A stretch of DNA of 64,000 nt from Opitutaceae bacterium (GCA_016794785.1 JAEUHC010000013.1:186001-250000); one strand, 5' to 3'; positions 8,182 to 30,330 are shown, counted from the stretch's first letter. Notes: a model not told the origin generated them from the sequence alone. Numbers and translations: made by a program.

Positions 8182-8252
8182 AGGGTGGGCCTGAGACCCG
8201 CCCTTTGCGTGTTGAGTGTTCGCACGGAGGGCGGGTCTGAGACCCGCCCTCC
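8182..8252. repeat. REP-like palindrome doublet between pstS and pstC
   Basis: Two palindromes lie about 45 nt apart in the 169-nt pstS-pstC gap. The second (8226-8252) is a perfect inverted repeat of 13 bp arms around one central base, built on GGGCGGGTCT / AGACCCGCCC. The first (8182-8204) is the same unit with two mismatched positions. The same unit appears as a doublet at 28837-28923. In the pst mRNA the hairpins could protect the upstream pstS part of the transcript, a known role of REP sequences in other operons; that role is inference here. Confidence 0.8.
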
Positions 8253-8271
8253 CTCAAGCCGCTACGAGGAA

Positions 8272-9078
8272 TTATTCCGGCGCGACGAAGCCCACCTTCT
8301 CGGCAATTTTCTTGCCCTCGGGGCTTAGGGTGAAGGCGACAAACTTGGCCGCCTCGCCCGCGGGTTCGCCATTCGTATAATAGAAGGTCGGCCGGGCGTA
8401 GGGATAGAGTCCCTTGAGCACGCTCGGCTTCGTGGGCATCTGGCCGTCGATGGGCAGGGTCTTGAGGCCCGGGGTCGAGAGGTAGGCGAGGCCGACGTAG
8501 CCGATGCCGTTGGGATTCTTGGCCACCTCGGCCGCGATCTGCTCGTTGCCGGCCATTTTCTGCGAGGCCCGGGCGTAGTCGCGGTTGTTCATCGCGAGCT
8601 GCTTGAAATCCGAGTAGGTGCCCGAGGAGGTGTTGCGCGTGTAGATGGAGATCTTGCCGGGCTTGCCGCCGACGGCGGACCAATCGGTGATGTCGCCCGA
8701 GAAGATCTGCTCGACCTGGCGCTTGGAGAGCTTGGCGATCGGATTGGCGGAGCTGACGACGATACCGATGCCGTCATAGGCGACGATGATGGGCTTGAGG
8801 GTGACGCCCTTCGCCGAGGCGGCGGACATCTCGGTCGGCTTCGCCCGGCGCGAGCTCATGCCGATCTGCGCGGTGCCGTCGATGATCGCCGTGAGGCCGG
8901 TGGTGGAGCCCTCCGCGGCAATCTCGAAGGCGACGCCGGGGTGCTGCGCCTTGTATTCCTCGGCGAGCGTGGGGACGAGTTTGGCGCCGAGGGTGTCGGA
9001 GCCCTTGATGACGAGTTTCTGCGCGGAGGCGAGCGAGGCGGCGGAGAGCGCGGAGAGGAGGAGAATCGCTGTTTTCAT
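8272..9078 (-). CDS. pstS: PstS phosphate-binding protein
   Basis: Periplasmic phosphate-binding protein of 268 residues with a Sec signal peptide (about 1-19, cleavage after ASA). PstS-type ligand segments are visible: [10 protein letters not shown] near 25-34, [10 protein letters not shown] and SSR in the first lobe, and [12 protein letters not shown] in the second. It delivers phosphate to PstCAB. It starts 30 nt after the porin stop on the same strand, so it is probably cotranscribed from the Pho-box promoter at 10459-10541. The 169 nt before pstC hold two palindromes that may set different expression levels for pstS and pstCAB. Confidence 0.95.
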
Positions 9079-9108
9079 GGGATGATGGGAGGGAAAGGAG
9101 CGGACGGT

Positions 9109-10389: not shown

Positions 10390-10458
10390 GAGCAGGGTGG
10401 TCTGAGTGGAATCGGCCGCGAAAACATCGCATCCGACGCGTCCAAGGTAGACGCCCAA

Positions 10459-10541
10459 TGTTACGAACTGATGACGGACAAGTGACGAAACCGGAACGAA
10501 CCGTCCCTTGCCGGCAAAAATCGGTGACGGAATGGTGACAG
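10459..10541 (-). promoter_or_regulatory. Pho-box arrays upstream of the porin-pst operon
   Basis: Read toward the porin there are two groups of 7-mers spaced exactly 11 nt. The first is CTGTCAC then CCGTCAC (10541-10535, 10530-10524). The second is CGTCACT, CGTCATC, CGTAACA (10487-10481, 10476-10470, 10465-10459), perhaps preceded by a weak CGTTCCG. Nine bases after the last unit lies TACCTT, a plausible -10. Repeat sequence, period and spacing fit the PhoB-box consensus, and the downstream genes are the phosphate importer. Direct PhoB binding is inferred. Confidence 0.8.
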
Positions 10542-10563
10542 CGCCTCCTTCGCTCGTTTTCGA

Positions 10564-10595
10564 CAAAAAAAGCGGCGCCCGCTGCCGGACGCCGC
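10564..10595 (-). terminator. Rho-independent terminator after the beta-helix gene
   Basis: On the minus strand a GC hairpin (GCGGCGTCCGG ... GGGCGCCGC, 10595-10572) is followed by a run of seven T (10571-10565). It lies about 30 nt past the stop of the gene ending at 10627 and separates that unit from the porin promoter. Confidence 0.85.
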
Positions 10596-12429: not shown

Positions 12430-12480
12430 GCGCATTCTCTGTTTTGGATTATGGGTGGACGAAAAAACGATCGGGCCGGC

Positions 12481-15345: not shown

Positions 15346-15394
15346 GCCGGAAGCACTCCCGGCGCGTCTGCCTGCCCGCAACCCCAATGACCCG

Positions 15395-15434
15395 CCGTCA
15401 CCGAGCTTTCACGACACCGCCATCCCACTGTCAC
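15395..15434 (+). promoter_or_regulatory. Four-unit Pho-box-like array, reading away from the receptor
   Basis: On the plus strand CCGTCAC, CTTTCAC, CCGCCAT and CTGTCAC start at 15395, 15406, 15417 and 15428, exactly 11 nt apart. The last unit belongs to a palindrome TGTCACATACGTGACA (15429-15444). The repeats lie 50-90 nt upstream of the minus-strand receptor start at 15345 but are oriented away from it. PhoB may act on the receptor from the reverse orientation, or the array may drive a short plus-strand transcript ending at the hairpin at 15477. No good -10 is visible. Confidence 0.5.
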
Positions 15435-15476
15435 ATACGTGACAACGCCGCGACGGCCGGACCGAGGAAGAAATGA

Positions 15477-15517
15477 GGAAGGCCGCCCAAACCCCTTTAG
15501 GCGGCCTTCCATTTTAT
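15477..15517. terminator. Strong hairpin, terminator-like
   Basis: GGAAGGCCGCC (15477-15487) and GGCGGCCTTCC (15500-15510) form an 11-bp perfect stem. On the plus strand it is followed by ATTTTAT, a weak T-tract; on the minus strand the tail is TCATTTCTT. It could end the small gene at 15610 on the minus strand, or a short plus-strand RNA that starts at the 15395 array. Confidence 0.5.
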
Positions 15518-15609
15518 ACCCGACCAATACTGACCCAACACAACCTGACGCCGCGAAAGACGAGAAGGGGTTAAAAACGTTCAGTCGTTTTCCGCGCATG
15601 CGCCCGAGT

Positions 15610-15852: not shown

Positions 15853-16031
15853 AACCGGAACAATGCGCCCTGCCCCACCCTCGGGTCCGGCGGCGTCCGC
15901 TGCGTTTTTCAACGAACTCGCGTCGCGACGGTGACGTTCGCGCGTCGGCGGCACAGGGGAGTTGACGGTGAACGCACCGAGGAATTGCCGTAAGCAGTCA
16001 GGAAATACGCACCGTGCCAACACCTCCCACC

Positions 16032-18845
16032 ATGTCTTCATCGACCTCCTCCAGGCCGCTTACTTCGCCCGGCCCGCACCTCCGCGCGCTGGCCTGCCTC
16101 GCCGCCAGTCTCTTCTCCGCCTTAGCCGCCTTCGCGCAGCCGACCGGCGCCATCGCCGGACGCGTGACCGACACACAGACCAAGCTCGCGCTCAGCGGCG
16201 TGCGGGTGAGCGTCGTCGGCACCGCGCTCTCCACCTTCGCCGATCCGGCGGGCGACTACCGGCTGTCCGACGTGCCGGCCGGCCCCGCGACCGTGGAATT
16301 CAACTACGTCGGCTACGGCGAAGTGCGCAAGACCGTGACCGTCGCCCCCGGCGCGACCGCCACGCTCAACGCCGCCTTCGGCGCCGAAGTCGTCGCCCTC
16401 GACAAATTCGTCATCACCGGCAGCGCCGTAGGCTCCGCGCGCGCGATCAACCAGCAACGCGCCGCGGACACCCTCACAAGCATCATCGCCTCCGATGAGA
16501 TCGGGCGCTTCCCCGATCAGAACGTCGCCGAGTCGATGCAGCGCATCCCCGGCCTCGCACTCTACCGCGATCAGGGCGAGGGACGTTTCATCGTCGTGCG
16601 CGGCATCCGTCCCGATCTGAACAGCGTGAAGCTCAACGGCGTCTCGATGGCCACGCCCGAGCGCGGGGACCGCGTCGTCGCCCTCGACGTGCTGCCGACC
16701 GACGCGCTCGCCGCGGTCGAGGTGACCAAGGTCCCCACGCCCGATCAGGATGCGGACGGCCTTGGCGGATCGATCAATGTCCGCACGCGCAGCGCCTTCG
16801 ACGCCGAGGAGCGCCAGCTCCAGTTCAGCGCCCAAGGCCAGTTCAACGATCTCACCGAACGTCTGGGCGGAAAACTCAACGCGACCTACGCCGATCGTTT
16901 CAACGACGGCCGGATCGGTTTCATCTTGGCCCCGACATGGCAGGCCCGCCGTTTCGGCTCGAACAACCTCGAGGAGGACGGCGGCTACACGCTGCGTCCG
17001 ATCCCCGGCTCCACCACCGGCCAGCAGGCCTATTTCCTGAACGGGATCGCCTTCCGCGAGTATGAGATCACGCGCACGCGCTACGGCGCCAGCTCGGCGC
17101 TCGAGTTCAAGCCCGACAACGAATCCTTCTACTACGTGCGCGGCACCTTCTCGCAGTTCAACGATCACGAGATCCGCTACGTTTACACGCTGCCCTTCGT
17201 CGAGGGCACGCTGAGCGCGCTCAACGACACGGGCGCCACGGTCACCGCGCTGCGCCGCGAGCGCTTCGACATGCGTTACCGGCAGAAGGATCAGCGCCTC
17301 TACTCCGTCGTTGCCGGCGGCGAGCGGACCTTTGGCCCGTGGAAATTCGACGGCCGCGCCGCGTGGTCGAAGGGCGAGGAGGAGCGGCCCGACGAGACGA
17401 CCGTCCGATTCCGCAAGAGTGGGCGCGGCAGCAACTGGACCTACTCGTTTGCCAACGGCACCTACGCGCCGAGCGTGAGTGTCACCGGCGCCAACGTCGC
17501 CGATCCCTCCCTCTACAACGAGATCAGCCGCTTCCGGATCGTGAATTCCCCGGGCGACGAGACCGAGATGAACCTCGGTTTCAACGCCCGCCGCGATCTG
17601 AAGCTCGGCGCCGCGCCCGTGTATGTGAAATTCGGCGCCCAGCTCCGCGAGAAAGAGAAAAACGCGAGCAACGAGACCACCGATTACGCGGCTCCCGCCT
17701 CGTTTACTTTTGCCGCGATGCTCGAAGGCCAGACGCCCGACGACTATCCGTTCTACTCGACCGGCGTCCGCGCCAGCGCACCGAGGATCCTCGCGGCCTT
17801 CCGCGACAATCGCGCCGCCTTCACGCCCACGCGGCTCTTCGTCGAGAGCACGCAGGACGACTGGCAGTCCACGGAGGATGTCGCCGCCTTCTATGCCCTG
17901 GGAGGCGCGACCTGGGGCCGGCTCAACGTCCTCGGCGGCCTGCGCTACGAACGCACGAAGTATGAGAACAAGGGTAACCAGATCACCGGCACGACCGCCC
18001 TGCCCGTCAGCCGCGGGCGCAGCTACGACAACTACCTGCCGGGCCTCCACCTCCGCTACAGCCTCGACCAGCAGACGATCCTGCGCGCCTCGTGGAGCAA
18101 TTCCCTCGCGCGGCCGTCCTTCGACGACAGTGCGCTCCGCCGCAGTGTCGATCTCGCCTCGAGCCGTGTGACGGAGGGCAACCCGCGGCTCAAGCCGCTC
18201 GAGTCGGCCAACTGGGACGCGTCGATCGAGCGCTACCTCCCCTCGCTCGGCCTGATTTCCGCCGCGGTCTTCCAGAAGGACATCGAGAACTTCACCTACC
18301 AGCGCACGCTGCCCGGCGGCGATCCCGCGACTGGCTTCACGCTCGTGACCTTCGTGAACGGCAACAAGGGCCGCATCCGCGGCCTCGAGCTCGCGTGGCA
18401 GCAGCAGCTGCGCGCGCTGCCCGCGCCGTTCAACGGCCTCGGTTTCATGGCCAACTACACGCGCAGCGAAAGCGAGGCCACCTACCCGACGCGCCCCGGC
18501 GAGAAGCTCGACTTCATCGGCCAGTCGAAGGAGATCGGCAACGTCGCGCTCACGTTCGAGCGCGGCGGGTTCTTCATCCGCGCCGCGCTCAATTTCCGCA
18601 CTCCGCGCCTGCGCGAGGACGAGCCGCTCGGCCCCGACGCCGCGAGCGACCGCTGGGTTGACGACTTCAAGCAGTTCGATGTGGCGGCGGCCTACCGTCT
18701 GAACCAGAACTGGGAGCTGTTCGCCGAGGGGCTCAACCTCACCAGCGAGCCGTTCCGCGTCTATTTCGGCAAAAACGGCACGCGCCTGACCCAGCTCGAG
18801 GAATACGGCTGGAGCGCGAACTTCGGCGTGCGCTGGAAGCTGTAA
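16032..18845 (+). CDS. TonB-dependent receptor (TonB-Xanth-Caul type)
   Basis: Outer-membrane receptor of 937 residues: signal peptide (about 1-35, ending FAQ), carboxypeptidase-regulatory-like domain (about 38-120, from GAIAGRVTDTQ), and a plug with the TonB-Xanth-Caul family phrases FPDQNVAESMQRIPG, IVVRGIRPDLNSVKLNG and VEVTKVPTPDQDADGLGG. A long beta-barrel with a conserved end follows. This subfamily in Xanthomonas, Caulobacter and Verrucomicrobia typically imports plant- or detritus-derived compounds. It is transcribed alone, divergent from the small gene at 15610, and ends at the terminator at 18871. The ligand is unknown; the position within Pho-related genes is only suggestive. Confidence 0.93.
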   Translation: MSSSTSSRPLTSPGPHLRALACLAASLFSALAAFAQPTGAIAGRVTDTQTKLALSGVRVSVVGTALSTFADPAGDYRLSDVPAGPATVEFNYVGYGEVRKTVTVAPGATATLNAAFGAEVVALDKFVITGSAVGSARAINQQRAADTLTSIIASDEIGRFPDQNVAESMQRIPGLALYRDQGEGRFIVVRGIRPDLNSVKLNGVSMATPERGDRVVALDVLPTDALAAVEVTKVPTPDQDADGLGGSINVRTRSAFDAEERQLQFSAQGQFNDLTERLGGKLNATYADRFNDGRIGFILAPTWQARRFGSNNLEEDGGYTLRPIPGSTTGQQAYFLNGIAFREYEITRTRYGASSALEFKPDNESFYYVRGTFSQFNDHEIRYVYTLPFVEGTLSALNDTGATVTALRRERFDMRYRQKDQRLYSVVAGGERTFGPWKFDGRAAWSKGEEERPDETTVRFRKSGRGSNWTYSFANGTYAPSVSVTGANVADPSLYNEISRFRIVNSPGDETEMNLGFNARRDLKLGAAPVYVKFGAQLREKEKNASNETTDYAAPASFTFAAMLEGQTPDDYPFYSTGVRASAPRILAAFRDNRAAFTPTRLFVESTQDDWQSTEDVAAFYALGGATWGRLNVLGGLRYERTKYENKGNQITGTTALPVSRGRSYDNYLPGLHLRYSLDQQTILRASWSNSLARPSFDDSALRRSVDLASSRVTEGNPRLKPLESANWDASIERYLPSLGLISAAVFQKDIENFTYQRTLPGGDPATGFTLVTFVNGNKGRIRGLELAWQQQLRALPAPFNGLGFMANYTRSESEATYPTRPGEKLDFIGQSKEIGNVALTFERGGFFIRAALNFRTPRLREDEPLGPDAASDRWVDDFKQFDVAAAYRLNQNWELFAEGLNLTSEPFRVYFGKNGTRLTQLEEYGWSANFGVRWKL

Positions 18846-18896: not shown

Positions 18897-20483
18897 TCAC
18901 GTCTGCAGCCACTCCAGCTCGTCGGCGACGGCGCGATCGCTGCGGCAGCGGGGCATCTTGCTCTGGCCGCCCCACTTTCCGCGCTCGCGCAGCCAGCGCT
19001 CGAAGGTGCCCGGCGCGACGAAGCGCACGAGAGGCGACTCGAGTCCGCCGCCCTTTCGCTTGGCCTCGTAGTCGTCGTTGCTGCGCTGGAGGTGGGCATC
19101 GAGCTCCGCCGCCAGATCGAGCTGCCGGCGCGGCGCGTATTTGAGCTCGATCGACCATTCGTGCCGGCCGCGTTTCTCGCCCGCCCGCGCGTCTATGAAC
19201 CGCGGCGCGACATGGAAGTTCGCCACCGTCAGGCCGTGCGCGACGGCGACGGCCGCGAGCGCATCGGTGACTTCCTTTTCGATCACGTGCTCGCCAAACG
19301 CGCTCAGCTGCAGCCGCGTCCGGCCGGCATAAAGCAGCCGCGCGGGCGCGGTGGAGACAAACCGCACCACGTCCCCAATCACGTAGCGGCAGAGGCCGGC
19401 GGGCGTCGTCATCAGCAGCACGTAGTCGACACCCGGGCGGACGCCCTCGAGGGGCACCGCGTCGCGGCCCAGCTCGGCCAGACGCGACTCGTCGTAGGAC
19501 GCCAGCGGGAGAAACTCGTAGAAGATCCCGGCGTCCGCCATCAGCCGCAGCCCGGCGGCGGGCTCGTCGTCCTGCGCGGCGATAAAGCCCTCGGAGGCGG
19601 GATAGACCTCGTGGAAATTCACCCCGTCGCCAGCCGCCCGGCGCAACTCGGCCGCAAACGGCCCGAGCGGCACGCCGCCATGCACGAGGCACTCCAGCCG
19701 CGGCCAGATCGCGCGAAGCGGTTTCCGCCCGGTGTGCGCGGCCATCTCCTCGGCCAGCACGAGCAGCCAGCTCGGGATGCCGGCGACGAGCGTGATGTCG
19801 CGCGTCGCGGTGCGCGCGGCGATGGCGCGGAGCTTCGCCGGCCAGTCGCCGATCTGCGCGATGGCGCGGCCGGGCTCGTAGAGGTGCCGCTCGACCCAGC
19901 CCGGCAGGTTCAGCGCCGTGATGCCGCTGAGATCGCCGCCCCAGGCGCGGAAGGGCCGCGCCTCCTCGATGGGTGCCAGCGCGGTCGATCCGCCGAGGAA
20001 AAGATGCCGGCCGCGAAACACCCGCGCGCTGCCCGTGCGCCGCGCGTAGAAGCAGAGCGAGTCGAGGCCCGTGCGCCGGAAATGGCCCAGCATCTCGCGC
20101 GTGATCGGCAGGTATTTCGTGCGGCCCGCCGTCGTGCCCGAGGACACCGCGTAATGCGCGCAGCGCCCCGGCCAGAGCACATCGGCCTCGCCGCGCTTCA
20201 TGCGCTCGATCCACGGCGTGAAGGTCTCGTAGGCGCGCGGCGTGACCCGCGCCTGAAACTCCTTGTAGGCCATGGTCCGCCCGATGCCTGCGTCGCGGCC
20301 AAACGCAGTCGCGGCGAATCGCCCCATCAAGGCGCGGCGTGTTTTCTCCTGCGCTTGCCGCGCGTCGTCCGCCGCGCGGAATCGCCGCGCCACCCGCGCG
20401 GTCTGCACCGCGGCGCCGAGCGCGACCGCCCGCTGCAGCCACGGGGTGCGCGGGGTAACCGGAGCGACGGCGGCGGTGTTCAT
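18897..20483 (-). CDS. GH3-family acyl-adenylate/amide synthetase-like protein
   Basis: This 528-residue protein of the GH3 auxin-responsive family belongs to the ANL adenylate-forming superfamily. Visible landmarks are the phosphate-binding SSGTTAGRTKYLP (about 114-126), YPASEGFIAAQ (about 305) and CRYVIGDVVRF (about 375), followed by a C-terminal lid. Plant GH3 enzymes join acyl acids to amino acids; bacterial members have no settled role. Its ATG overlaps the stop of the alpha/beta hydrolase gene upstream (ATGA), so the two are translated together. An acid-activating step paired with a hydrolase is possible but unproven. No signal peptide. Confidence 0.85.
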   Translation of the reverse strand: MNTAAVAPVTPRTPWLQRAVALGAAVQTARVARRFRAADDARQAQEKTRRALMGRFAATAFGRDAGIGRTMAYKEFQARVTPRAYETFTPWIERMKRGEADVLWPGRCAHYAVSSGTTAGRTKYLPITREMLGHFRRTGLDSLCFYARRTGSARVFRGRHLFLGGSTALAPIEEARPFRAWGGDLSGITALNLPGWVERHLYEPGRAIAQIGDWPAKLRAIAARTATRDITLVAGIPSWLLVLAEEMAAHTGRKPLRAIWPRLECLVHGGVPLGPFAAELRRAAGDGVNFHEVYPASEGFIAAQDDEPAAGLRLMADAGIFYEFLPLASYDESRLAELGRDAVPLEGVRPGVDYVLLMTTPAGLCRYVIGDVVRFVSTAPARLLYAGRTRLQLSAFGEHVIEKEVTDALAAVAVAHGLTVANFHVAPRFIDARAGEKRGRHEWSIELKYAPRRQLDLAAELDAHLQRSNDDYEAKRKGGGLESPLVRFVAPGTFERWLRERGKWGGQSKMPRCRSDRAVADELEWLQT

Positions 20484-21589
20484 GCGGCGAGCGGCAGGGC
20501 CGTGCGCAGCCGCCCGTAGAATGCCTGCAACGGCGGCAGGAACTCAAAGACGTGGAAGATGAGCGAGGCGTGCTGCACCGGCGCATCGCCCGCCCGGGCC
20601 GACACCTCCCGCACGATGCCCCGCGGGAAATAGGCGCGGTGCCCGTGCTTGAGGGCGAAGATCGAGGGCGCCCGGGCATCGAGCACATCGTCCTCCCGCT
20701 CGGCGAACAGCACGAGCGCCGGCGCGGTCGTGAGGGGCAGTAGCGCGGGCAGGAAGTAGTCGGTCGGCGCCTGCATCTGCACGAGCGCCTGCACCCGCTC
20801 GCGCGCGCCGCGCGCCGTGATCGATCGGATCGCGCCGCCGACGCTGGCCCGCAGCCGCTCCAGCTCCGGCACGGTCATGAGCCGGCGGAGCGCCGCCTTG
20901 TTCTGCGCCCCGGCCTCGAACATCCGCGTGAATACCGTGCGCGACTTCTCGACCGCGGCCTCGCCGGCCGGCGCGGCGGGATTCAGGTAGGGCTTGAGCG
21001 CGCGGCCGAGCAGCGTCGCGGGCTTGGCCGCGCCGGTCGCCACCACATCCGCCACGCACGCGACCGGACTCACGATCACGACGCCGGCCAAGGCCGGGGC
21101 GGCGCCGGCCACGCGCTGGCGGCGGAGCCACTCGAGGAGAAGCCCCGCGCCGAAGCTCACGCCGAAAATCACCGGCCGCTGGCCCTGAGCGGCGAGTGCG
21201 GCCACGAGGTCGTCCAGCTGCGCGCAGAGCAGATCGAGCGAAAAGCCGTCGCGCGGATAGACCATCGCGTAAAGGTCGCCGGATTGGAGAAAAAATCGGC
21301 GCAGGAGAAAAACCTGCTCCGCCGAGTCCGGCACGAAGCCGCCGAGCACAATCGTCGGCACCCGCCCGCGGCCCGTCTCGCGCAACACCGTGGCGCGCTG
21401 CCCGGCCGAGGCCAGGCCTCGCGCGATGAGCTCGTGCTCGGCGCGCGGCCGGGCGGGCGCATAAGTCGCGGCGCACGGCGGGCGCAGGCGCTCCTGCGTG
21501 GTGCGGACCAACGTGTGCAGCGGGCGCAACGGCGTCGCGTGCAGCATGGCATACCAGGACAAGGCGGGGGCGAGGCTGAGGGCGGGCAT
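20480..21589 (-). CDS. Alpha/beta-hydrolase-fold protein
   Basis: Protein of 369 residues with a nucleophile elbow GVSFGAG (about 143-149) matching the Gly-x-Ser-x-Gly pattern. It ends with HASLIFHVFEF, where the first His could be catalytic, and has an Asp in FAEREDDVLDARAP that may complete the triad. The exact substrate is not visible. It overlaps the GH3-family gene downstream by 4 nt. A 102-nt gap separates it from the metallophosphoesterase gene upstream, so it may belong to the same lipid-related operon or have its own promoter. The ATG at 21589 is the longest sensible start; an internal ATG at codon 15 is also possible. Confidence 0.75.
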   Translation of the reverse strand: MPALSLAPALSWYAMLHATPLRPLHTLVRTTQERLRPPCAATYAPARPRAEHELIARGLASAGQRATVLRETGRGRVPTIVLGGFVPDSAEQVFLLRRFFLQSGDLYAMVYPRDGFSLDLLCAQLDDLVAALAAQGQRPVIFGVSFGAGLLLEWLRRQRVAGAAPALAGVVIVSPVACVADVVATGAAKPATLLGRALKPYLNPAAPAGEAAVEKSRTVFTRMFEAGAQNKAALRRLMTVPELERLRASVGGAIRSITARGARERVQALVQMQAPTDYFLPALLPLTTAPALVLFAEREDDVLDARAPSIFALKHGHRAYFPRGIVREVSARAGDAPVQHASLIFHVFEFLPPLQAFYGRLRTALPLAA

Positions 21590-21691
21590 CGGTCACCGAG
21601 GCCATGCGGCGGCGCGGGATTCACAATCCCCGATGGGGCGCGTCACGGAAACTTTTCCCGGGCGAAACGCGCCCGTAACATCACGCCCGAT

Positions 21692-22498
21692 TCAGGCCTC
21701 CACCAGCTCGGCCGCGGGGTCCGCCTCCACCGGTTCGCCATCCTCCATCGGATGCTCGCGTAGAAACTGCGTGAACTCGACGAGCTCGAGGCGCCCGTCC
21801 CAATGCTCCACGATCGCGGTCAGCGATTCGACCCAGTCGCCGGAGTTCAGGTAGTGGATGTCGCCAATCATCTTGTCGGCCGGGGTGTGGATGTGGCCGC
21901 ACATCACGCCCGTGCAGCCGCGCTCGCGGGCGAGCCGCGCGATGTGATCCTCGAAATTCGAGATGTGGCTGACCGCCTCCTTCACGCGCGCCTTGATCGC
22001 GCGGCTGAGCGACCAGTATTCGAGGCCGCGCCACGCGCGCCAGGCGTTGTAGGCGCGGTTGATGTTCAGGAGCGCGCGGTAGCCCCAGTCGCCGAGGTGC
22101 GAGAGGAAGACGAAGTTCTTCGTCACCGTGTCGAAGATGTCGCCGTGCAGCACGAGGTAGCGGCCGCGCGGCGTGTCGTGGACGTAGTCCTCGACGATGC
22201 GCAGGTTCTCGAAGGCGAGCGGCAGGAAGGTCGCGAGGATGTCGTCGTGGTTGCCGCGCAGGTAGATCACCTCGGTGTCGCGCTTCTCGAGTTTCTTGAG
22301 GACGATGCGGACGAAGCGCGTGTGCGCCTTGGTCCAGCTGCCGCCCCGGCGGAGCTGCCAGCCGTCGATGATGTCGCCGTTGAGGATCAGGCGTGCGCAG
22401 CGCGTCTCGCGGAGAAAATGATTCACCTCGCGGACCTTCGAGTCGGACGTGCCAAGGTGCACGTCCGAGAGGATGATCGTGCGGACGTGGAGCTTCAT
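21692..22498 (-). CDS. PlcP-like / UDP-diacylglucosamine-pyrophosphatase-family metallophosphoesterase
   Basis: Calcineurin-fold phosphoesterase of 268 residues: SDVHLG (11-16), GDIIDGW (41-47), GNHDD (82-86), HGDIFD and CGHIHTP with a closing NSGDWVES. The overall pattern resembles, from memory, the Pho-regulated phospholipase C PlcP of Sinorhizobium, which cleaves phosphatidylcholine or phosphatidylethanolamine to diacylglycerol; LpxH-like UDP-diacylglucosamine hydrolases share the fold. Its ATG overlaps the stop of the diacylglycerol-kinase-like gene, and two glycolipid-type glycosyltransferases lie further upstream. That setting favours lipid remodelling over lipid A synthesis. No signal peptide, so it should be cytoplasmic or membrane-peripheral. 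Confidence 0.8.
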   Translation of the reverse strand: MKLHVRTIILSDVHLGTSDSKVREVNHFLRETRCARLILNGDIIDGWQLRRGGSWTKAHTRFVRIVLKKLEKRDTEVIYLRGNHDDILATFLPLAFENLRIVEDYVHDTPRGRYLVLHGDIFDTVTKNFVFLSHLGDWGYRALLNINRAYNAWRAWRGLEYWSLSRAIKARVKEAVSHISNFEDHIARLARERGCTGVMCGHIHTPADKMIGDIHYLNSGDWVESLTAIVEHWDGRLELVEFTQFLREHPMEDGEPVEADPAAELVEA

Positions 22499-23439
22499 GG
22501 GAACTGGAGGGCAAACCGCCCCCGCGGGACAGCGCACGCCGGGGCGACCGCGGCCGACGCCACGGGGATCACCATGCGCAGGCTCCGGGGGCGCACGACG
22601 ACTTCGACACGCGGGCCGGCCTCATGTGTTTCGCCGTCAGTGTGGATCAGGCCGGGCGCCACCCGCTCGATCACGAAGCGCGGGCCGGTGAAGCGCGTCA
22701 CGAGCGGACTGCAGTCGAGATTGCCGAGGAAAAGCCGCGGGCCGAGCGCCGCCACGCCCGCCCATCTCCCCGCGCGGATTGCCACGAGGTCGAGGCGGCC
22801 GTCGTCGACGCGCGCCCCGGGCGCGATGCGGGCGTGGTTGCCGTATTGGTCGGAATTGGCGACGGCCACGAGGAGCACATCGATCGATTCCGTGCGCTCG
22901 CCGCTGCTGATCGTGCAGCGCTGAGGGCGTAGCGAACGCAACGCGGAGAGCGCGACCCGCGCGTAGGCGGGCAGGCCCCGGCGCACGAGCCGGTTGAAGC
23001 GCGAGCTCACCTCGGCATCGAGGCCGAGGCCCATGGCGTTGAAGAAGGGTTTTCCGTTCGCCAGGCCCGTGTCGACCGCGGCCACGCGGCCGCCCGCGCC
23101 CGTCGCGAGCTGCAGCGCCGCGAGCGGCGCGCGCGGAAACCCGAGGTGCAGCGCAAGGCCGTTGCCCGAGCCGCACGGCACCAGCGCCAGCGCGGCCGGC
23201 GTGTCGAGCAGGCCTTGCGCGACTTCGTTCATGGTGCCATCACCACCGACGGCGACGATCACCTCGCGCCCAGCGATCGCCGCCTCGCGCGCCAGCACGG
23301 TCGCGTGGCCCGGCCCCTCGGTCATCGTGAACTCGGCGTCGAGCGAGCGGGCCGCGATGAAACCGCGGATCGCCTCGGCCAGCGCCGGCCGGCGCCGATT
23401 GCGGCCGGAGCAGGGGTTGAAGATGAAACGGGTCTTCAT
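22495..23439 (-). CDS. Diacylglycerol/lipid kinase-family protein
   Basis: This 314-residue protein of the DAGK/YegS/BmrU family starts with RFIFNPCSGRNRR and carries the nucleotide-binding GGDGTMNEVAQG (about 80-91) and PCGSGNGLALHLG (about 107-119). The C-terminal beta-sandwich has the expected acidic pattern (ARVDDGRLDLV, HTDGE). Members phosphorylate diacylglycerol, sphingoid or other lipids. Both ends overlap their neighbours by 4 nt (GT28-like gene upstream, PlcP-like gene downstream). In a lipid-exchange operon it could return diacylglycerol to phosphatidic acid when phosphate is available again; that is inference. Confidence 0.88.
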   Translation of the reverse strand: MKTRFIFNPCSGRNRRRPALAEAIRGFIAARSLDAEFTMTEGPGHATVLAREAAIAGREVIVAVGGDGTMNEVAQGLLDTPAALALVPCGSGNGLALHLGFPRAPLAALQLATGAGGRVAAVDTGLANGKPFFNAMGLGLDAEVSSRFNRLVRRGLPAYARVALSALRSLRPQRCTISSGERTESIDVLLVAVANSDQYGNHARIAPGARVDDGRLDLVAIRAGRWAGVAALGPRLFLGNLDCSPLVTRFTGPRFVIERVAPGLIHTDGETHEAGPRVEVVVRPRSLRMVIPVASAAVAPACAVPRGRFALQFP

Positions 23440-24602
23440 GCGGAAGCGGCGGTCGCGCGCAGAGGCAGGGGCACGGGCTCGATGGCGATGCGGGCGGCGG
23501 CGTGGGCCGCCATGGCCCTGGAAATTTCGTGCGCCGCCTCGGAACGGGAAAGCGGATCCAGCGCGGCGCGCCACTGCGCCCAGACGCGGCCGCGATCGCG
23601 GAAGGCGCGATCCAGCTCGGCGAGCACGGCGGCGGGCGTCTCCGCCAGCGCGCCGATGCCATGCCGCCGGAGCAGCTCGTAGTTGCCCTCCTCCTGCCCT
23701 GGCACGATCTGATTCACGATCATCGGGCAGCGCGCGGCGAGCGCCTCCTGCGTCGTGGCCCCGCCGGCTTTGCTAATGACGATGTGATGCGTCATCAGCA
23801 GCCGGGGAATCTCGTTGGTCCAGCCGAGGATCGCGGTCGGGTGCGGGCGCTGCGCGGCGAGCGCCGCAAGCTCCGCGCGGAGTCTCTCGTTCCGGCCGAC
23901 GGTGCAGGTGAGATCCCACGTTGTCTCGGCGATGAGCCGTCGCGCCGTCTCGGCGGCGCCGCGCGTGCCGGAGTTGATGATGTAGAGCACGCGCGGGATG
24001 GCGCCGGCACGGAGGTCGGGCGGGGCAAGGCGGCCCGCCTGTTCGCGGAAGAACGGATTGACGGGAAATCCCGCCACATGGAGGCGCCGGCCATCGACGC
24101 CCGCGGCGCGCATCACCGCCGCGGAATCCTCGTTGGGCACGAACCACCCGTCCGCGCCGGCCCGCCACCAGAGCGAATTGATGCTGATCGAGTCGGTGAC
24201 GACGCTGAAGCACGGCACATCGACGCGCCCGTCCCGCGCAAGCTTGGCCAGCATGAAGCCGTAGGCTGGATAGGTCGCGCAGATCGCATCGGGGCGGCGC
24301 TGCGCGATGAGGCGGGCCAGCACGCGCGTCTCGGCCCGCAGCAGGCCCATGAGCCGCGGCGCGAGCGACGAGCGATCGAGCCAGGCGTAGGCCGCGCTCC
24401 AAAGGCGGGGCGCCCGGTTGATCAGGCCGAGATAACTGCGGCGCGCGAGTTCGTTGAGGCGCGGCGAGGCCAGGGCGAACACATCGGCCACCTCCGCCGC
24501 GCCCGCACCGTGCAACGCATCGTGCGCGGCGGCGAGAGAGCGCGCGGCGGCGTTGTGCCCCTCGCCATATCCGGCCGTCAGGATGAGGACACGCGGTTTC
24601 AT
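23436..24602 (-). CDS. MGDG-synthase/UgtP-like glycolipid glycosyltransferase
   Basis: This 388-residue GT28-type enzyme has the MGDG-synthase N-domain (LILTAGYGEGHNAAARSL, about 6-23) and a C-terminal nucleotide-sugar domain with GWTNEIPRLL, SKAGGATTQEALAARCP and PGQEEGNYELL. Homologues transfer galactose or glucose from a UDP-sugar to diacylglycerol, giving membrane glycolipids. It overlaps the GT4 gene upstream and the lipid-kinase-like gene downstream by 4 nt each. Together with the PlcP-like phosphoesterase it suggests a pathway from phospholipid to diacylglycerol to glycolipid. Confidence 0.88.
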   Translation of the reverse strand: MKPRVLILTAGYGEGHNAAARSLAAAHDALHGAGAAEVADVFALASPRLNELARRSYLGLINRAPRLWSAAYAWLDRSSLAPRLMGLLRAETRVLARLIAQRRPDAICATYPAYGFMLAKLARDGRVDVPCFSVVTDSISINSLWWRAGADGWFVPNEDSAAVMRAAGVDGRRLHVAGFPVNPFFREQAGRLAPPDLRAGAIPRVLYIINSGTRGAAETARRLIAETTWDLTCTVGRNERLRAELAALAAQRPHPTAILGWTNEIPRLLMTHHIVISKAGGATTQEALAARCPMIVNQIVPGQEEGNYELLRRHGIGALAETPAAVLAELDRAFRDRGRVWAQWRAALDPLSRSEAAHEISRAMAAHAAARIAIEPVPLPLRATAASA

Positions 24603-25759
24603 GCGATCGCCGGCTCGGGCCGGGGCGCGCCCTCGCCCGCCACGGCCGCGAGGTCGGCCTCGAAGCGCCCGATCACCGTCTCCCAAGACTGCGCCTCGAC
24701 CGCGGGCCGCGCCGCGCCGCGCAGCTGGGCGCGCAGCAAATCGTCGGTCGCGAGCAGCACCGCCGCCTCGACCAGCGCCTCCGGTGCCGCGCAGGGGACG
24801 GCGAGGCCGTTTTTCCCGTGGACCACAAACTGCCGCGCGGCCGCATAGTCGAAGCCCGCCACGGCGAGCCCGCTTGCCATCGCCTCGGTCAGCACGTTGC
24901 CAAAGGTCTCCGTGAGGCTGGCGTGGATGTAGATGTCCGCCGAGGCGTAATGGCGCGCGAGCTCGGCGCGCGGCACAAAGCCCGGAAAAACGAAATCGCG
25001 ATGCTCCCGCTGCAGGCGCGCGCGCAACGGGCCGTCGCCGACCAGGACGAAGCGGCAGCGGGGATTGGCCGCGTGCATCGCCGCAAAGGCGCGCCCGAGC
25101 AGCCCGTAGTTTTTCTCCGCCGCCATGCGGCCCGCGTGGATCACGACCGGGTTGTCCGGGCCGGCGCCCCACCGGGCCCGCAGCTCGGGGGAGCGACGGG
25201 CCGGGTGGAATTGCCACGTGTCCACCCCCCGCGACAGCAGGGCGGTGCCGTGAAAGCCCAGCGCCGCGAGCTCGCGGCACAGCTCGAGCGTGGGCGCAAA
25301 CGTGCGCCGCGTGCGGTTGTGCACGTGCCGCAGCCACGCGAGCACCGGCCGGTGGAAAAAGCCAAAGCCGTAGTGGCGCGTGTAGGCGTGGAAGTTGGTG
25401 TGGAAGCTCGAGGTGACCGGAATCCCGAGCGCGCGCGCCGCGGTCACGGCCGACGCGCCAAGCGGTCCCTCCGTCGCCACATGCACGAGGTCCGGCCGTT
25501 CCTCGGTCCAACTCCGCCGCAGCGCGCGGCCGGCGGGCAGGCCCATCCGCAGCATCGGGTAGCGCGGGATCGGGAATCCGGGCATCGGCACCTCCGCGAA
25601 CTCCGGGTGCGAGTCGCCTGCCGGCAGATCGTCGCGCCGCGGGCGATGGACACTCACTGCATGGCCGCGCCGCCCGAGTTCCCGCGCGATGAGCCCGAAA
25701 GTCATCGCCACGCCGTTGATTTCCGGCGGGAAGGTTTCGGTGACGAGGGCGAGTTTCAC
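24599..25759 (-). CDS. GT4 glycosyltransferase, SqdX/MgtA-like
   Basis: Glycosyltransferase of 386 residues with a GT-B fold. The N-terminus TETFPPEINGVAMT, typical of the SqdX/MgtA/Agt lipid glycosyltransferase group, is followed by TSSFHTNFHAYTRHYG. In the C-terminal domain are HAGRMAAEKN, LVGDGPLR and the E-x7-E segment SLTETFGNVLTEAMASG. Such enzymes add a sugar or sulfoquinovose to diacylglycerol, or build mannosides. It is the first gene of the overlapping lipid operon, started by GTG at 25759. A weak Pho-box-like triplet with a TTTAAT -10 lies just upstream. The sugar donor is not identifiable. Confidence 0.87.
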   Translation of the reverse strand: MKLALVTETFPPEINGVAMTFGLIARELGRRGHAVSVHRPRRDDLPAGDSHPEFAEVPMPGFPIPRYPMLRMGLPAGRALRRSWTEERPDLVHVATEGPLGASAVTAARALGIPVTSSFHTNFHAYTRHYGFGFFHRPVLAWLRHVHNRTRRTFAPTLELCRELAALGFHGTALLSRGVDTWQFHPARRSPELRARWGAGPDNPVVIHAGRMAAEKNYGLLGRAFAAMHAANPRCRFVLVGDGPLRARLQREHRDFVFPGFVPRAELARHYASADIYIHASLTETFGNVLTEAMASGLAVAGFDYAAARQFVVHGKNGLAVPCAAPEALVEAAVLLATDDLLRAQLRGAARPAVEAQSWETVIGRFEADLAAVAGEGAPRPEPAIA

Positions 25760-25798: not shown

Positions 25799-25842
25799 AT
25801 TAAACCCGCTCGGTGTGCCGAACCCGTGGCGGCGGGGTTACG
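25799..25842 (-). promoter_or_regulatory. Weak Pho-box-like promoter of the lipid operon
   Basis: Read toward the GT4 gene, CGTAACC, CGCCACG and CGGCACA start at 25842, 25831 and 25820 (11-nt period). After 9 nt comes TTTAAT (25804-25799) as a -10. The repeat-to-(-10) spacing equals that of the porin promoter, and CGTAACC matches its third unit CGTAACA, but the other units are poor matches. On the plus strand ATGTCAC / TCGTCGC at 25881 and 25892 could serve the divergent receptor. Confidence 0.35.
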
Positions 25843-25956
25843 ATTCGGCGAAACCCCGCCCGGCCGATGGCCACGACCGGATGTCACTGCTTCGTCGCGA
25901 AACCTCCGCCGGTCCGACACACGCCGCGCGCAGGATGGTGCGCTCCCGCTCCCACC

Positions 25957-28827
25957 ATGCACCTCCTCCTCCCGTCCCCTCGCCTGCTCCTCGTCTTTCT
26001 CGCGCTGCTGCCCGCGGCGCTGTGCGCCCAAGCCACCGGCTCCATCGCCGGCCGCGTCTCCGACGCCGCCACCGGCAAGTCCCTCCAGGGCGCGATCGTC
26101 CGCGTCGTCGGCAGCAAGGTCGCCGACTACACTGACTCCGACGGCCGTTTCGCCCTCTCCGGCGTGCCCGCCGGCCCGCAGCGCGTCGAGATCGACTATG
26201 TGGGACTCGACGTGCTGGTGCGCGACGTGACCGTCACCGCCGGCGGCCTCGCGCCGCTGAACGCCGCGCTGGAGAGCAAGGCGCTCAAGCTCGAGGCCTA
26301 CACCGTTTCCGAATCAGTGCGCGGCCAGGCGCTCGCCATCAACCAGCAGAAGACCGCGAGCGGCCTCGTGAACATCGTGTCCGAGGAGACGTTCAGCACC
26401 AACCTGGGCGGCAACATCGGCTTCACGCTGCAGCAGCTCCCAGGCCTCAGCGTGAACGAGGGCGAGGACGGCGAGCCTTCGGGCGTCAACATCCGCGGCC
26501 TCGAGGCAAAGTATAATGCCGTCCAGATGGACGGCAACCGCATGCCCGCCTCCGGCAATTCGCGCGCCTTCTCCCTCGGCCAGCTCAACGCCGACAGCGT
26601 CGCCAACATCGAGGTCATCAAGGCCGCCACGCCCGACCGCGACGGCGACGCGCTCGGCGGCATTATCAACGTCATCTCGCGCTCCGCGTTTCAGCGCGAC
26701 GGCCGCACCATCGAGTTCAGCGCCGGCGGTCTCTACTACGACAAGCGCGAGAAATGGAACTACAACGCCGCGCTCAACTACCTCGACATTTTCTCCGTCG
26801 GCGGCGGCGAGAAAAACCTCGGCGTCGGCCTGAACCTCGCGTGGTCCGAGACCTCGCGCGACTACGACAACCTCGACAAGGACTACGCCGTGCTCCGCCC
26901 CGAGTTCGAGCCCGCGCTCGGCCTGACCGCCCCCCTTTATTTCCACACCAACGCCGCGCCGCAGACCAACTACCGCGAGACCACCGCCGAGAGCGTCAAC
27001 CTCTCCCTCGACTATCGGCTCAATCGCGTCACGTCCTTTTATCTCCGGCCGTTCTACCGGCATCAGGTGACCGACTCCGAGAAGCCCCGCGCCCGCTACT
27101 ATATCAACGCGAACCACAGCTTCAACGCCGCCAACGGCACGAAGAGTATCGCCGAGGCCACCTACAACACCGGCCGCAGCCTCCCGACCACCCTCACCGA
27201 GCTGCGCTACCAGAACGATCTCAGCGTCTCCGACAACGATGTCTATGGCGCCGCCTTCGGCGGCCGCCACGAGCTGGACCGCACCACGATCACCTTCGAC
27301 CTCTTTCGCTCCAACAACGACTCGAACCGCGACCGCTCCCTCGCCTACGTGATCCGCAACCAAGGCTACAGCTTCGGTTACGACCAGACCATCCGCTGGA
27401 AGCCCGTCTACACCATCCTCAACGGCAAGGATCCTCACGATGTCACCGCGATCAACCGCGGCGATCTGACGATTTCACCGCGCGACGCCGCCGAGAAGGC
27501 CTCCAGCGCGAAGGTCGATCTCGAGCGCAAATTCGCCGGCGACACGCTGAGCGGCGCCCTGAAGTTCGGCGCCAAGTTCCGCTCCAACGTCAAGGAGCAG
27601 GATCAGGCCTCGACCGTCTATCAGACCGGCAGCAACGCCGGCGGCTTCCCCTACGCCAGCCTCCTTACGCGCACCGACTACAAGACCTTCGGCGCCCTCC
27701 CGATCTACCAGTATCCGGATCTCAACCGCACCGAGGCCCTGCTCCGCACGAGCCCGCAGCTCTTCGCGCTCCAGGCCAGCAACGCCCTCCTCAACGACGT
27801 GATCAACGACTACCGCGCGCAGGAGGACACCACCGCCGCCTACGCGATGGGCACGCTCCGCTTCGGCCGCACCACGATGATCACCGGGCTGCGCATGGAG
27901 AAAAACGAGTTCGAATCCCGCACCTACCGCTACAACAGCAACGCCCCCGCCACGCCCACCACCGTCAACGCCCGGCGCGATTACACGCTGTGGCTCCCCG
28001 GCCTCCACTTCCGCCACGAGCTGAGCCGCAACCTCATCCTCCGTGAGAGCTACAACCGCAGCTACAGCCGCCCCGACGTCAACGCCCTCGTCGCCGGCCT
28101 CAACCTCGACACCAACACCGGCAACATCTCCGGCGGCAACCCCAACCTTACGGAGACCACCTCCCACAACTTCGACGTGCAGCTCGAATACTACACGCCC
28201 AGGGGCGGCCTCTACTCAGCGGGCGTCTTCTACAAAAAAATGAAGGGCTTTTACTACGAGACCACGCAGCGCTTCACCACCACCGACGCCAACGGCTACC
28301 CGATTCCTGACGCCAACGGCACGCGCATCTACACCTCGACCGCCAACGCCCTCGGCGCGACCAACTACGGCCTCGAGCTCATCGCGCGGCAGAAGCTCCT
28401 GTTCCTCCCCAAGCCCTTCAACGGCCTCGGCGTCGCGCTCTCCGCCACGCTCACCGAGAGCGACGGCAAATACCCGGGCCGCCTGAGCGAGGACCTCCCC
28501 ACTTACGGCTTCAGCGACAAGATCTACAACGCCGCGCTCGAATACGCCGGCGGCGGCTTCCGCGCGCGCCTCAGCTACACCTACCGTTCCGATTTCCTCG
28601 AGGGCCTCGATGCCAACGAATTTTTCGACGACTACTTTGGCGCCTACGAGTCGCTCAACTGGGAATCGAGCTACCAGCTCACGAAAAACACGCGCCTCTT
28701 CCTCAATGTGAACAACCTCACCGACGAGCCCCAGATCTCCTACCAAGGCCGCGGTCGCCCCGACCATCCGGAGGACTACACCACCTACTCGTGGCGCGCG
28801 ACCCTCGGCGCGACGATCCGGTTCTGA
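25957..28827 (+). CDS. TonB-dependent receptor upstream of two phosphatases
   Basis: Outer-membrane receptor of 956 residues: signal peptide (about 1-24, ending CAQ), carboxypeptidase-regulatory-like domain (about 27-105), a linker with AYTVSE, and a plug with FTLQQLPGLSVNEG, VNIRGLEAKYNAVQMDG and DRDGDALGGIINV. A beta-barrel ends in a C-terminal Phe. Two exported calcineurin-fold phosphatases follow on the same strand, so import of the product of, or an organic-phosphate ligand for, those enzymes is a reasonable guess. Hairpins at 28837-28923 separate it from the first phosphatase. ATG 25957 starts the signal peptide; upstream in-frame codons look non-coding. Confidence 0.93.
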   Translation: MHLLLPSPRLLLVFLALLPAALCAQATGSIAGRVSDAATGKSLQGAIVRVVGSKVADYTDSDGRFALSGVPAGPQRVEIDYVGLDVLVRDVTVTAGGLAPLNAALESKALKLEAYTVSESVRGQALAINQQKTASGLVNIVSEETFSTNLGGNIGFTLQQLPGLSVNEGEDGEPSGVNIRGLEAKYNAVQMDGNRMPASGNSRAFSLGQLNADSVANIEVIKAATPDRDGDALGGIINVISRSAFQRDGRTIEFSAGGLYYDKREKWNYNAALNYLDIFSVGGGEKNLGVGLNLAWSETSRDYDNLDKDYAVLRPEFEPALGLTAPLYFHTNAAPQTNYRETTAESVNLSLDYRLNRVTSFYLRPFYRHQVTDSEKPRARYYINANHSFNAANGTKSIAEATYNTGRSLPTTLTELRYQNDLSVSDNDVYGAAFGGRHELDRTTITFDLFRSNNDSNRDRSLAYVIRNQGYSFGYDQTIRWKPVYTILNGKDPHDVTAINRGDLTISPRDAAEKASSAKVDLERKFAGDTLSGALKFGAKFRSNVKEQDQASTVYQTGSNAGGFPYASLLTRTDYKTFGALPIYQYPDLNRTEALLRTSPQLFALQASNALLNDVINDYRAQEDTTAAYAMGTLRFGRTTMITGLRMEKNEFESRTYRYNSNAPATPTTVNARRDYTLWLPGLHFRHELSRNLILRESYNRSYSRPDVNALVAGLNLDTNTGNISGGNPNLTETTSHNFDVQLEYYTPRGGLYSAGVFYKKMKGFYYETTQRFTTTDANGYPIPDANGTRIYTSTANALGATNYGLELIARQKLLFLPKPFNGLGVALSATLTESDGKYPGRLSEDLPTYGFSDKIYNAALEYAGGGFRARLSYTYRSDFLEGLDANEFFDDYFGAYESLNWESSYQLTKNTRLFLNVNNLTDEPQISYQGRGRPDHPEDYTTYSWRATLGATIRF

Positions 28828-28956: not shown

Positions 28957-30330
28957 ATGCGCCCGCACTCTCTCCGCCTCCTCGCCCTGCTCACGCTCGC
29001 GTTCCCGCTCGCCGCGCACGACCATCCTGCCCACGTCCCCGGCACACCCTACGCCGACAAGTTTGCCTTCGCCCCCCGCCCGCTCCCCGATCGCATCGTG
29101 CTCACCTGGCGCGGCGATCCGGCGACCACGCAGGCCGTGACCTGGCGCACCGACCCCACGGTCATTCGTGCCGTCGCCGAGTTTGCCCTCGCCAACGAGG
29201 CGGGCCGCTCGCTCAAGGGCGAGTCGGTCGCCGCCCGCACCCAGCCGCTCACGACCGATCTCAGCGAGGCGCACTACCACTCGGCGGAGTTCACCGGCCT
29301 CGCGCCCGACACGCTCTACGCCTACCGCGTGGGCGACGGCGTGAACTGGAGCGAGTGGTTCCACTTCCGCACGGCGAGCCGCGACGCGCGCAAGTTCACG
29401 TTCGTCTATTTCGGCGATGCGCAAAACGACGTGCGCACGCACTGGTCGCGCGTCTTCCGCGAGGCGTTTCGCGAGGCGCCGCGCGCCGCCTTCACGCTCC
29501 ACGCCGGCGACCTGATCAACAACGCGCACCGCGACGGCCAGTGGGGCGAGTGGCACGGCGCCCCTGCGTGGGTCAACGCCACCATCCCCGTGGTCCCCAC
29601 GCCCGGTAACCATGAGTTTGCCAAGCTCGACGAGAAGGACGCCGCGGCCCCGCGCGCACTGAGCGTCCAATGGCGCCCGCAGTTCGCGCTGCCGGAAAAT
29701 GGCCCCGCCGAGCTGGCTGAGACCTGCTACTGGTTCGACTACCAAGGCACGCGCATCGTCTCGCTCGATTCCAACCGGCTGCACGAGGAGCAGGTGCCAT
29801 GGCTGCGCGCCGTGCTGGAGAAAAATCCGCAGCGCTGGACCATCCTCACGTTTCACCACCCGATTTTCTCGCCGGCCAACGACCGCGACAACCCGAAGCT
29901 CCGCGCGCTGTGGAAGCCGCTCATCGACGAGTTCAAGGTCGATCTCGTGCTCACCGGCCACGACCACACCTATGCGCGCAGCGGCGACATGGCCGGCCGC
30001 GCCCGCGTCGGCTCCGTCAACGCCGCCAAGGGCTACAACCAGGTCTACGATCCCGCGATCGGCACCGTCTATGTCGTCTCGGTCGGCGGCCCCAAGATGT
30101 ATGACCTCATGTCCGACGCGTGGGCCGTGCGCACCGCCGAGGACACCCAGCTCTTCCAAATCATCACCATCGACGGCGGCGAGCTCCGTTACGAGGCGCG
30201 CACCGCGATCAACCGGCTCTACGACGCCTTCACGCTCCGCAAACGCGAGGGCCGCGCCAACGAGCTGGTCGAGACCCTCCCGCTCGAAACGCGCCGTGCT
30301 CCGAAGCCGGCCGCCGCAGCAAAAGACTGA
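28957..30330 (+). CDS. Exported purple-acid-phosphatase-like metallophosphatase
   Basis: Exported protein of 457 residues: signal peptide (about 1-20, AAH), an N-terminal fibronectin-like domain (about 45-145, containing LAPDTLYAYRVGDG), then a calcineurin-fold catalytic domain. The latter has YFGDAQND (about 150-157), HAGDLINN, PTPGNHEF, FHHPIFSP and TGHDHTYAR. The two-domain order is that of bacterial and plant purple acid phosphatases, which release phosphate from esters such as phytate. It follows a TonB-dependent receptor and precedes a second exported phosphatase. No phosphate-box repeat is visible directly upstream. Confidence 0.88.
   Translation: MRPHSLRLLALLTLAFPLAAHDHPAHVPGTPYADKFAFAPRPLPDRIVLTWRGDPATTQAVTWRTDPTVIRAVAEFALANEAGRSLKGESVAARTQPLTTDLSEAHYHSAEFTGLAPDTLYAYRVGDGVNWSEWFHFRTASRDARKFTFVYFGDAQNDVRTHWSRVFREAFREAPRAAFTLHAGDLINNAHRDGQWGEWHGAPAWVNATIPVVPTPGNHEFAKLDEKDAAAPRALSVQWRPQFALPENGPAELAETCYWFDYQGTRIVSLDSNRLHEEQVPWLRAVLEKNPQRWTILTFHHPIFSPANDRDNPKLRALWKPLIDEFKVDLVLTGHDHTYARSGDMAGRARVGSVNAAKGYNQVYDPAIGTVYVVSVGGPKMYDLMSDAWAVRTAEDTQLFQIITIDGGELRYEARTAINRLYDAFTLRKREGRANELVETLPLETRRAPKPAAAAKD

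Follow-up and report, generated by a model that had tools for sequence, protein, structure and literature searches.

Systems that couple the phospholipase C PlcP to lipid glycosyltransferases are already in the literature, as are their Pho boxes, loci with several transferases, and PlcP proteins of Verrucomicrobia (PMC4796936, PMC8528852, PMC9239053). Among the plcP locus types of Sebastian et al., types 3 and 5 carry several transferases, including one that produces di- and tri-glycosyl-diacylglycerols; Verrucomicrobia are listed there as PlcP carriers (PMC4796936); no PlcP was found in verrucomicrobial methanotrophs (PMC9239053). An OlsH/OlsI pathway to ornithine lipids was published in 2025 for a planctomycete, Singulisphaera acidiphila (PMC12493201). 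There, OlsH forms N-acyl-ornithine from a free fatty acid and ATP, with an essential serine in motif 1, and OlsI, an alpha/beta-hydrolase, attaches the second acyl chain; planctomycete olsH and olsI share an operon (PMC12493201). Here we analyze a window of 64,000 nucleotides (nt) from an Opitutaceae bacterium (GCA_016794785.1 JAEUHC010000013.1:186001-250000), part of a 6.1-Mb genome, in which four overlapping genes at 21692-25759 encode two glycosyltransferases, a lipid kinase and a PlcP-like phosphoesterase. We propose that the window probably holds a PhoB-controlled phospholipid-replacement island, which would make glycolipids and, more tentatively, an aminolipid.

Organization and conservation of the lipid genes

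The genes in question all lie on the minus strand and are arranged as follows.

24599-25759, minus strand: GT4 glycosyltransferase, the first gene, with a GTG start that is kept in relatives (Pfam Glyco_transf_4/Glycos_transf_1)
23436-24602, minus strand: GT28/MGDG-synthase-like glycosyltransferase of the UgtP/MGD1 type (Pfam MGDG_synth)
22495-23439, minus strand: YegS/BmrU-family (DAGK/YegS-like) lipid kinase (Pfam DAGK_cat, YegS_C)
21692-22498, minus strand: PlcP-type phospholipase C, a calcineurin-like phosphoesterase (identity, tree, motifs)
20480-21589, minus strand: olsI-like alpha/beta-hydrolase, candidate O-acyltransferase of aminolipid synthesis (model fold, GVSFG motif, GH3 neighbor)
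18897-20483, minus strand: olsH-like GH3 acyl-amino-acid synthetase (Pfam GH3 N, M and C domains; NCBIfam OlsH)
24599-24602, 23436-23439 and 22495-22498, minus strand: ATGA overlaps (sequence)

The first four families are supported far above chance by Pfam and NCBIfam, and their genes are joined by three 4-nt ATGA overlaps, as described in an earlier note made from the sequence alone. The extent which that note gave to the operon was right for these four genes and too short overall, since two further genes on the same strand (18897-21589) were left out. These are the hydrolase and GH3 genes, themselves joined by ATGA, and they make a better case than the kinase for the fuller system that had been suggested. 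The gap between plcP and the olsI-like gene is 102 nt; no terminator-like site was found in it on the operon strand, and a sigma-70 promoter scan gave no match.

The order of the four genes persists in relatives whose proteins are as little as 60-80% identical and is thus not a chance reading. The nearest named relative, the Opitutaceae metagenome-assembled genome C18_metabat.bin.8, has a PlcP 98% identical to that of the window, and plcP is present in 36 of 57 relatives. Members of the genus consistently show GT4-GT28-kinase-plcP, whereas outside it the kinase may be missing (GT4-GT28-plcP in G027, G029, L080 and Geminisphaera L086, in our numbering) or plcP may stand in the middle (GT4-plcP-GT28 in L088 and L091). 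The cultured Geminisphaera colitermitum TAV2 has GT4-GT28-plcP. Most other Verrucomicrobiota have GT4-plcP alone, Bacteroidota have plcP with a different transferase, and Pseudomonas has plcP-Agt, so that a glycosyltransferase adjoins plcP in all three groups. The core of the locus is therefore plcP plus a transferase, which is already known, and GT28 and the kinase are additions. As in PlcP-Agt systems, plcP here shares an operon with lipid glycosyltransferase genes, with 4-nt overlaps and conserved order. One relative, G018 (L035/L192), has a plcP broken by an in-frame stop, with no kinase gene detected beside it; other genomes have intact copies.

PlcP versus LpxH

The window phosphoesterase shares 48% identity with the PlcP of P. 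aeruginosa and 42% with that of S. meliloti, against 22-24% with LpxH proteins. The two PlcPs are 46.6% identical to each other in our comparison, which agrees with the published value of 46% for PA3219 (PMC8528852). The motifs SDVHLG, GDIID, GNHD, HGD and GHIH, which hold the calcineurin-like metal ligands, are present in the window protein, and the key residues are invariant across all 17 aligned proteins; a PDB sequence search with PlcP gave no matches. The earlier note had proposed a family tree against LpxH as a check on its assignment. A maximum-likelihood tree built from 38 proteins has a 100/99 branch that separates the six LpxH and LpxH-like proteins from the window protein and both tested PlcPs, which group together; the grouping with LpxH that the note had named as refuting its reading thus does not occur.

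The alternative that the phosphoesterase is LpxH, and that the cluster serves lipid A or lipopolysaccharide assembly, draws on the automatic annotation of relatives as 'UDP-2,3-diacylglucosamine diphosphatase' and on a weak match of the window protein to the LpxH hidden Markov model. This match, at 37.1 bits (36.4 in the genome search), lies well under the cut-off of 134 bits, LpxH proteins stand apart in the tree, and PlcP coexists with an LpxH-like protein in P. protegens, Pelomonas, Algoriphagus, Belliella and Bacteroides nordii. In addition, the profile search of the genome found no LpxH above cut-off and an LpxI at 142 bits, well above its own. Because the genome is supplied with LpxI for lipid A and the phosphoesterase groups with PlcP, we reject the LpxH identity, which we judge extremely improbable and which, barring a biochemical surprise, the tree and the presence of LpxI already refute. 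By its sequence, the window phosphoesterase is PlcP.

In the reference data, S. meliloti plcP adjoins a LuxI/LuxR gene pair, a neighborhood that we take to be that of SMc00171, the S. meliloti plcP gene. The record CP090106.1 (L071), labelled S. meliloti pSymB and with LuxI/LuxR beside plcP, is 3.72 Mb long, far above pSymB, and is probably the S. meliloti chromosome, mislabelled.

Glycosyltransferases and lipid kinase

The GT4 protein has 32% identity to the Agt1-type neighbor of PlcP in P. aeruginosa and scores 90 bits with the NCBIfam model for alpha-monoglucosyl-diacylglycerol synthase, under a cut-off of 400. We propose for it an Agt-like function, in which diacylglycerol and a UDP-sugar would give monoglycosyl-diacylglycerol. 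The GT28 protein matches Pfam MGDG_synth at 59.9 bits and the NCBIfam diglucosyl-diacylglycerol synthase model at 144.3 bits, below the UgtP/YpfP equivalog cut-off of 500; its PDB matches include a processive diacylglycerol beta-glucosyltransferase (9wde, E 9e-22) and MGD1 (4wyi, E 6e-19). It is a homologue of the UgtP/YpfP diglucosyl-diacylglycerol synthase, and we do not assign it to that function. The presence of two transferases is less unusual than the earlier note supposed when it credited known PlcP systems with only one, given types 3 and 5 of Sebastian et al. (PMC4796936).

The kinase scores 117.4 bits with TIGR00147, against a cut-off of 118.65, and contains both the GGDGT and the DGE motifs. 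The substrate/metal motif PxGTxND(F) of bacterial diacylglycerol kinases (DgkB/YegS type) and of YegS/BmrU-type lipid kinases is replaced by PCGSGNGL, and PxGSGNGL is invariant in 18 kinase orthologues including those of Bacteroidota. Because PxGSGNGL stands in place of PxGTxND(F), we consider it possible, if rather doubtful, that the enzyme acts on a lipid other than diacylglycerol, such as a long-chain base, a ceramide-like lipid or a polyprenol. The invariance of the altered motif and a second DAGK-family gene elsewhere in the genome are consistent with this; on the other hand, GGDGT and DGE are retained, and a role in diacylglycerol balance would suit the repeated linkage to plcP and a transferase, which is seen again in Bacteroidota L110 and L124, where a DAGK-family gene comes after these two.

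Whatever its substrate, the kinase is, to judge from gene content, dispensable among relatives, since it is missing from several intact operons (e.g. G027, G029, L080 and Geminisphaera L086). The suggestion that the pathway is reversible rested on the kinase only and is not supported: the gene is dispensable, its motif differs, and beside PlcP it would merely cycle.

The olsI-olsH-like pair

The hydrolase at 20480-21589 has no Pfam or NCBIfam match, and a PDB sequence search returned no matches. Its AlphaFold model (predicted local distance difference test score, pLDDT, 84) has an alpha/beta-hydrolase fold, and its structural neighbors in the PDB are alpha/beta-hydrolases. Ser145 of the GVSFG motif and His340 are invariant in 18 orthologues, and wherever the hydrolase was found in a genome it adjoins a GH3 gene. 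By predicted fold, GxSxG serine and olsH adjacency it is a candidate OlsI-like enzyme.

The GH3 protein has OlsH (NF052613) as its sole NCBIfam match, at 393.8 bits and under the cut-off of 620. Pattern matching finds motif 1 as SSGTTAGRTK at position 114, with the serine kept, and GLCRYVIGD at position 363; YPASE is seen directly in the translation, where the strict motif-2 pattern has no match. No OlsB/OlsF-type N-acyltransferase domain (PF13444) was found in the genome. The pair might instead make an N-acyl amino acid, or an aminolipid other than ornithine lipid, which we see as a real but lesser possibility. The window score, close to the 393 bits of a Bacteroidota GH3 and well under the 610 bits of an alphaproteobacterial one, points in this direction, as does the published caution that the amino acid used may differ in homologues from other groups than planctomycetes (PMC12493201). 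Against it stand the two-gene logic of GH3 plus alpha/beta-hydrolase, as in olsH-olsI, and the finding that olsI-linked GH3 proteins outscore paralogues without olsI (372-394 versus 276-308 bits). In Indioceanicola, the source of the 610-bit GH3, the gene just upstream is penicillin-amidase-like, as identified by eye, and was rejected as OlsI-like.

The hydrolase occurs in 10 of 195 genomes of the phylum, all of them Opitutaceae, and a search on plasmids found none. In the family set, 18 of the 26 Opitutaceae genomes that have plcP also have olsI, against 0 of the 11 that lack it (Fisher 1.3e-4, not corrected for kinship). The two loci lie less than 3 kb apart in 5 of these 18 genomes and less than 25 kb apart in 9, and the pair adjoins plcP in several lineages. 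In L082 and L084, plcP and olsIH are near each other, with a methyltransferase gene on the opposite strand between them. Class I methyltransferase genes of this kind, either between plcP and olsI and divergent from olsI or near olsIH (L082:9924-10886, L084:6010-6906, L186:10796-11566), occur in several Opitutaceae and could encode enzymes that modify an aminolipid. Those of L082 and L084 matched only general methyltransferase families, and we do not claim them as OlsG counterparts. Many Opitutaceae also have a second GH3 gene, about 50% identical, with neither an olsI neighbor nor a Pho-box-like site (L059-L068).

Pho-box-like sites and the phosphate neighborhood

Candidate PhoB half-sites with 11-bp spacing were scored with a matrix written from the E. 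coli-type consensus and not fitted to these promoters, although the upstream sequences had been inspected before the matrix was written. Three arrays in the window are relevant here.

25815-25843, minus strand: Pho-box-like array upstream of GT4, TCGTAAC n4 CCGCCAC n4 TCGGCAC (p 0.005 in the 200-nt upstream region)
21640-21679, plus strand: degenerate, reversed Pho-box-like array upstream of olsI (GCGTCAC, ACTTTTC, GCGAAAC, CCGTAAC)
15395-15434, plus strand: strongest Pho-box-like array of the window, with the best three- and four-repeat scores, next to the TonB receptor gene on the pst side

The PhoB box of PlcP-Agt systems is present as a sequence match in all 10 relatives, where the best three-repeat site upstream of GT4 has p 0.005-0.04 and always lies in the orientation of the gene; the upstream site of Pseudomonas plcP, used as a positive control, has p 0.005. 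The window olsI array ranks 12th of 127,922 window places as a four-repeat. Some 60-95 nt ahead of the olsI start, a reversed array reaches p<=0.01 (0.005-0.01) in 11 of 18 relatives, a set of upstream regions that includes close kin and counts one locus twice, and their alignment shows the repeat period. None of 10 GH3 paralogues without olsI is preceded by a Pho-box-like site at p<=0.01.

Phosphate genes of the window lie on both sides of the lipid genes.

2000-10566, minus strand: phoR, phoB, phoU, pstB, pst permease, pstS and an OprP-type porin (Pfam)
28957-30330, plus strand: purple acid phosphatase of the same phosphate island (Pfam Pur_ac_phosph_N, Metallophos)

The phoRB-phoU-pst-oprP block is thus some 8-17 kb from the lipid genes, and these were correctly described as lying beside pho genes only in a loose sense that takes in this block and the phosphatase. 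A further top-ranking site of the window-wide scan lies at 10460, near the porin gene. In relatives, too, the neighbors are phosphorus genes (pst, oprP, ppk1, phytase, phosphatase). In G023, olsIH adjoins pst-oprP and runs divergently from the GT4 operon; in G015, the gene before olsI encodes a phytase; in G024, plcP and olsI are separated by ppk1 (L187:5554-7944); and in G025, a ppk1-like gene, identified by eye, immediately precedes olsI (L185:3421-5622).

It is conceivable that this is a constitutive glycolipid/aminolipid operon, or one responding to another stress, with its proximity to pho genes incidental. Several GT4-plcP loci outside Opitutaceae do lack a box and olsIH is often unlinked, but the box-like sites in 10 of 10 Opitutaceae-type upstream regions, the recurrent phosphorus neighbors and the release of phosphate head groups by PlcP make this unlikely. 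The proposal of a PlcP-type phospholipase and lipid glycosyltransferases under phosphate control is backed by the PlcP tree, the conserved order and the Pho-box-like sites.

Several other features of the neighborhood deserve mention. The plcP gene of a Mitsuaria plasmid (L073) also adjoins ppk1. Genes of TonB-dependent-receptor type at 12481-15387, 16014-18845 and 25813-28827 flank the pst and lipid genes, with related receptors in the same places in relatives (L179, L180, L190 and L191), and perhaps serve the uptake of organic phosphates. Between the porin and a TonB receptor gene, 10627-12435 encodes a 602-aa protein with no Pfam match and with partial matches near the olsI or plcP loci of G015, G009 and G018. 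The four-repeat array within 15395-15530 is partly palindromic (CTGTCACATACGTGACA) and is followed on the plus strand by a hairpin, GGAAGGCCGCC...GGCGGCCTTCC, and a few consecutive T residues, and the interval contains no obvious plus-strand gene; this segment is perhaps a short Pho-controlled RNA or leader. Farther away, ketoacyl synthase, acyl carrier, MMPL exporter, AMP-binding and FAD/halogenase-like genes at 46063-60542 suggest an aryl-polyene-type pigment cluster.

A model for phospholipid replacement

The model combines the observed gene content and order, PlcP phylogeny, Pho-box-like sites, olsI-olsH coupling and olsIH-plcP link with enzymatic steps that are all inferred from relatives. 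On phosphate depletion, PhoB would switch on GT4, GT28, the kinase and plcP from the box at 25815-25843, and transcription would probably continue into olsI-olsH, aided by the box of that pair. PlcP would convert phosphoglycerolipids to diacylglycerol and a phospho-alcohol; GT4 would place a first sugar on the diacylglycerol, and GT28 would make a second glycolipid or extend the first. OlsH would use ATP to couple ornithine, or an amino acid related to it, with a free fatty acid, and OlsI would add the second acyl chain to give a phosphorus-free aminolipid. The kinase would probably dispose of surplus diacylglycerol or of another lipid alcohol.

Several points weigh against this model, and the weakest part of the explanation is the substrate of the kinase. 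The GT4 and GT28 scores are under every equivalog cut-off. Ornithine is not assured as a substrate because the GH3 score of 394 bits is below the OlsH cut-off of 620, and the candidate assignment to OlsI (Sinac_1601 in S. acidiphila) comes from predicted fold and gene pairing. The window olsI box is degenerate, with p ~0.2 as a three-repeat. The presence of a separate box, and the 102 nt between plcP and olsI, could reflect transcription as two units. In many relatives, olsIH is on another contig or distant from plcP (1.3 Mb in G030).

Comparison with known systems

Our literature search, which covered few subscription journals, found nothing joining plcP remodelling with OlsH/OlsI, or Opitutaceae with plcP. 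A Nibricoccus GH3 protein is included in the published OlsH tree, in a paper that never uses the term plcP and draws no link to plcP or phosphate regulation (PMC12493201). The parts would thus seem to be known singly and the combination not. Nibricoccus is itself a member of Opitutaceae. With doubt slightly outweighing conviction, we suggest that this is the first bacterial gene block, controlled by PhoB, to link the breakdown of phospholipids by PlcP with the synthesis of glycolipids as well as of GH3-type (OlsH/OlsI) aminolipids. In this reading, OlsH/OlsI would have been brought into the Pho regulon within Opitutaceae, as an invention of that family, and the aminolipid might have a new head group. 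The best-studied cases of lipid remodelling during phosphate limitation are proteobacterial, and the predicted verrucomicrobial set would extend it to another phylum. The OlsH/OlsI aminolipid pathway would also gain a testable physiological role in phosphate sparing, and the arrangement suggests that replacement by glycolipids and by aminolipids can be joined in one circuit instead of arising separately.

In Methylosinus trichosporium OB3b, phosphate limitation leads to both glycolipid and ornithine lipid, a pairing comparable to the one predicted here; its candidate ornithine-lipid genes are, in contrast, OlsA/OlsB (PMC9239053). With Singulisphaera acidiphila (PMC12493201), the locus shares a GH3 gene and an alpha/beta-hydrolase gene in one operon and the lack of an OlsB/OlsF-type N-acyltransferase. 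It differs in having no olsG methyltransferase between these genes, in a GH3 protein under the OlsH equivalog cut-off, and in the tie of the pair to plcP and Pho-box-like sites, a link absent from that paper. The plcP loci of types 3 and 5 (PMC4796936) likewise have more than one transferase; here, however, the second is a GT28 protein (UgtP/MGD-like), and aminolipid genes are not described in those loci. There is also a likeness to PlcP-Agt remodelling in Phaeobacter MED193, Pelagibacter HTCC7211 and P. aeruginosa PA3219-PA3218 (PMC4796936, PMC8528852), where PlcP of the same clade stands beside GT4 with a Pho box upstream, and to which the Opitutaceae locus adds GT28, a lipid kinase and the olsI-olsH-like pair.

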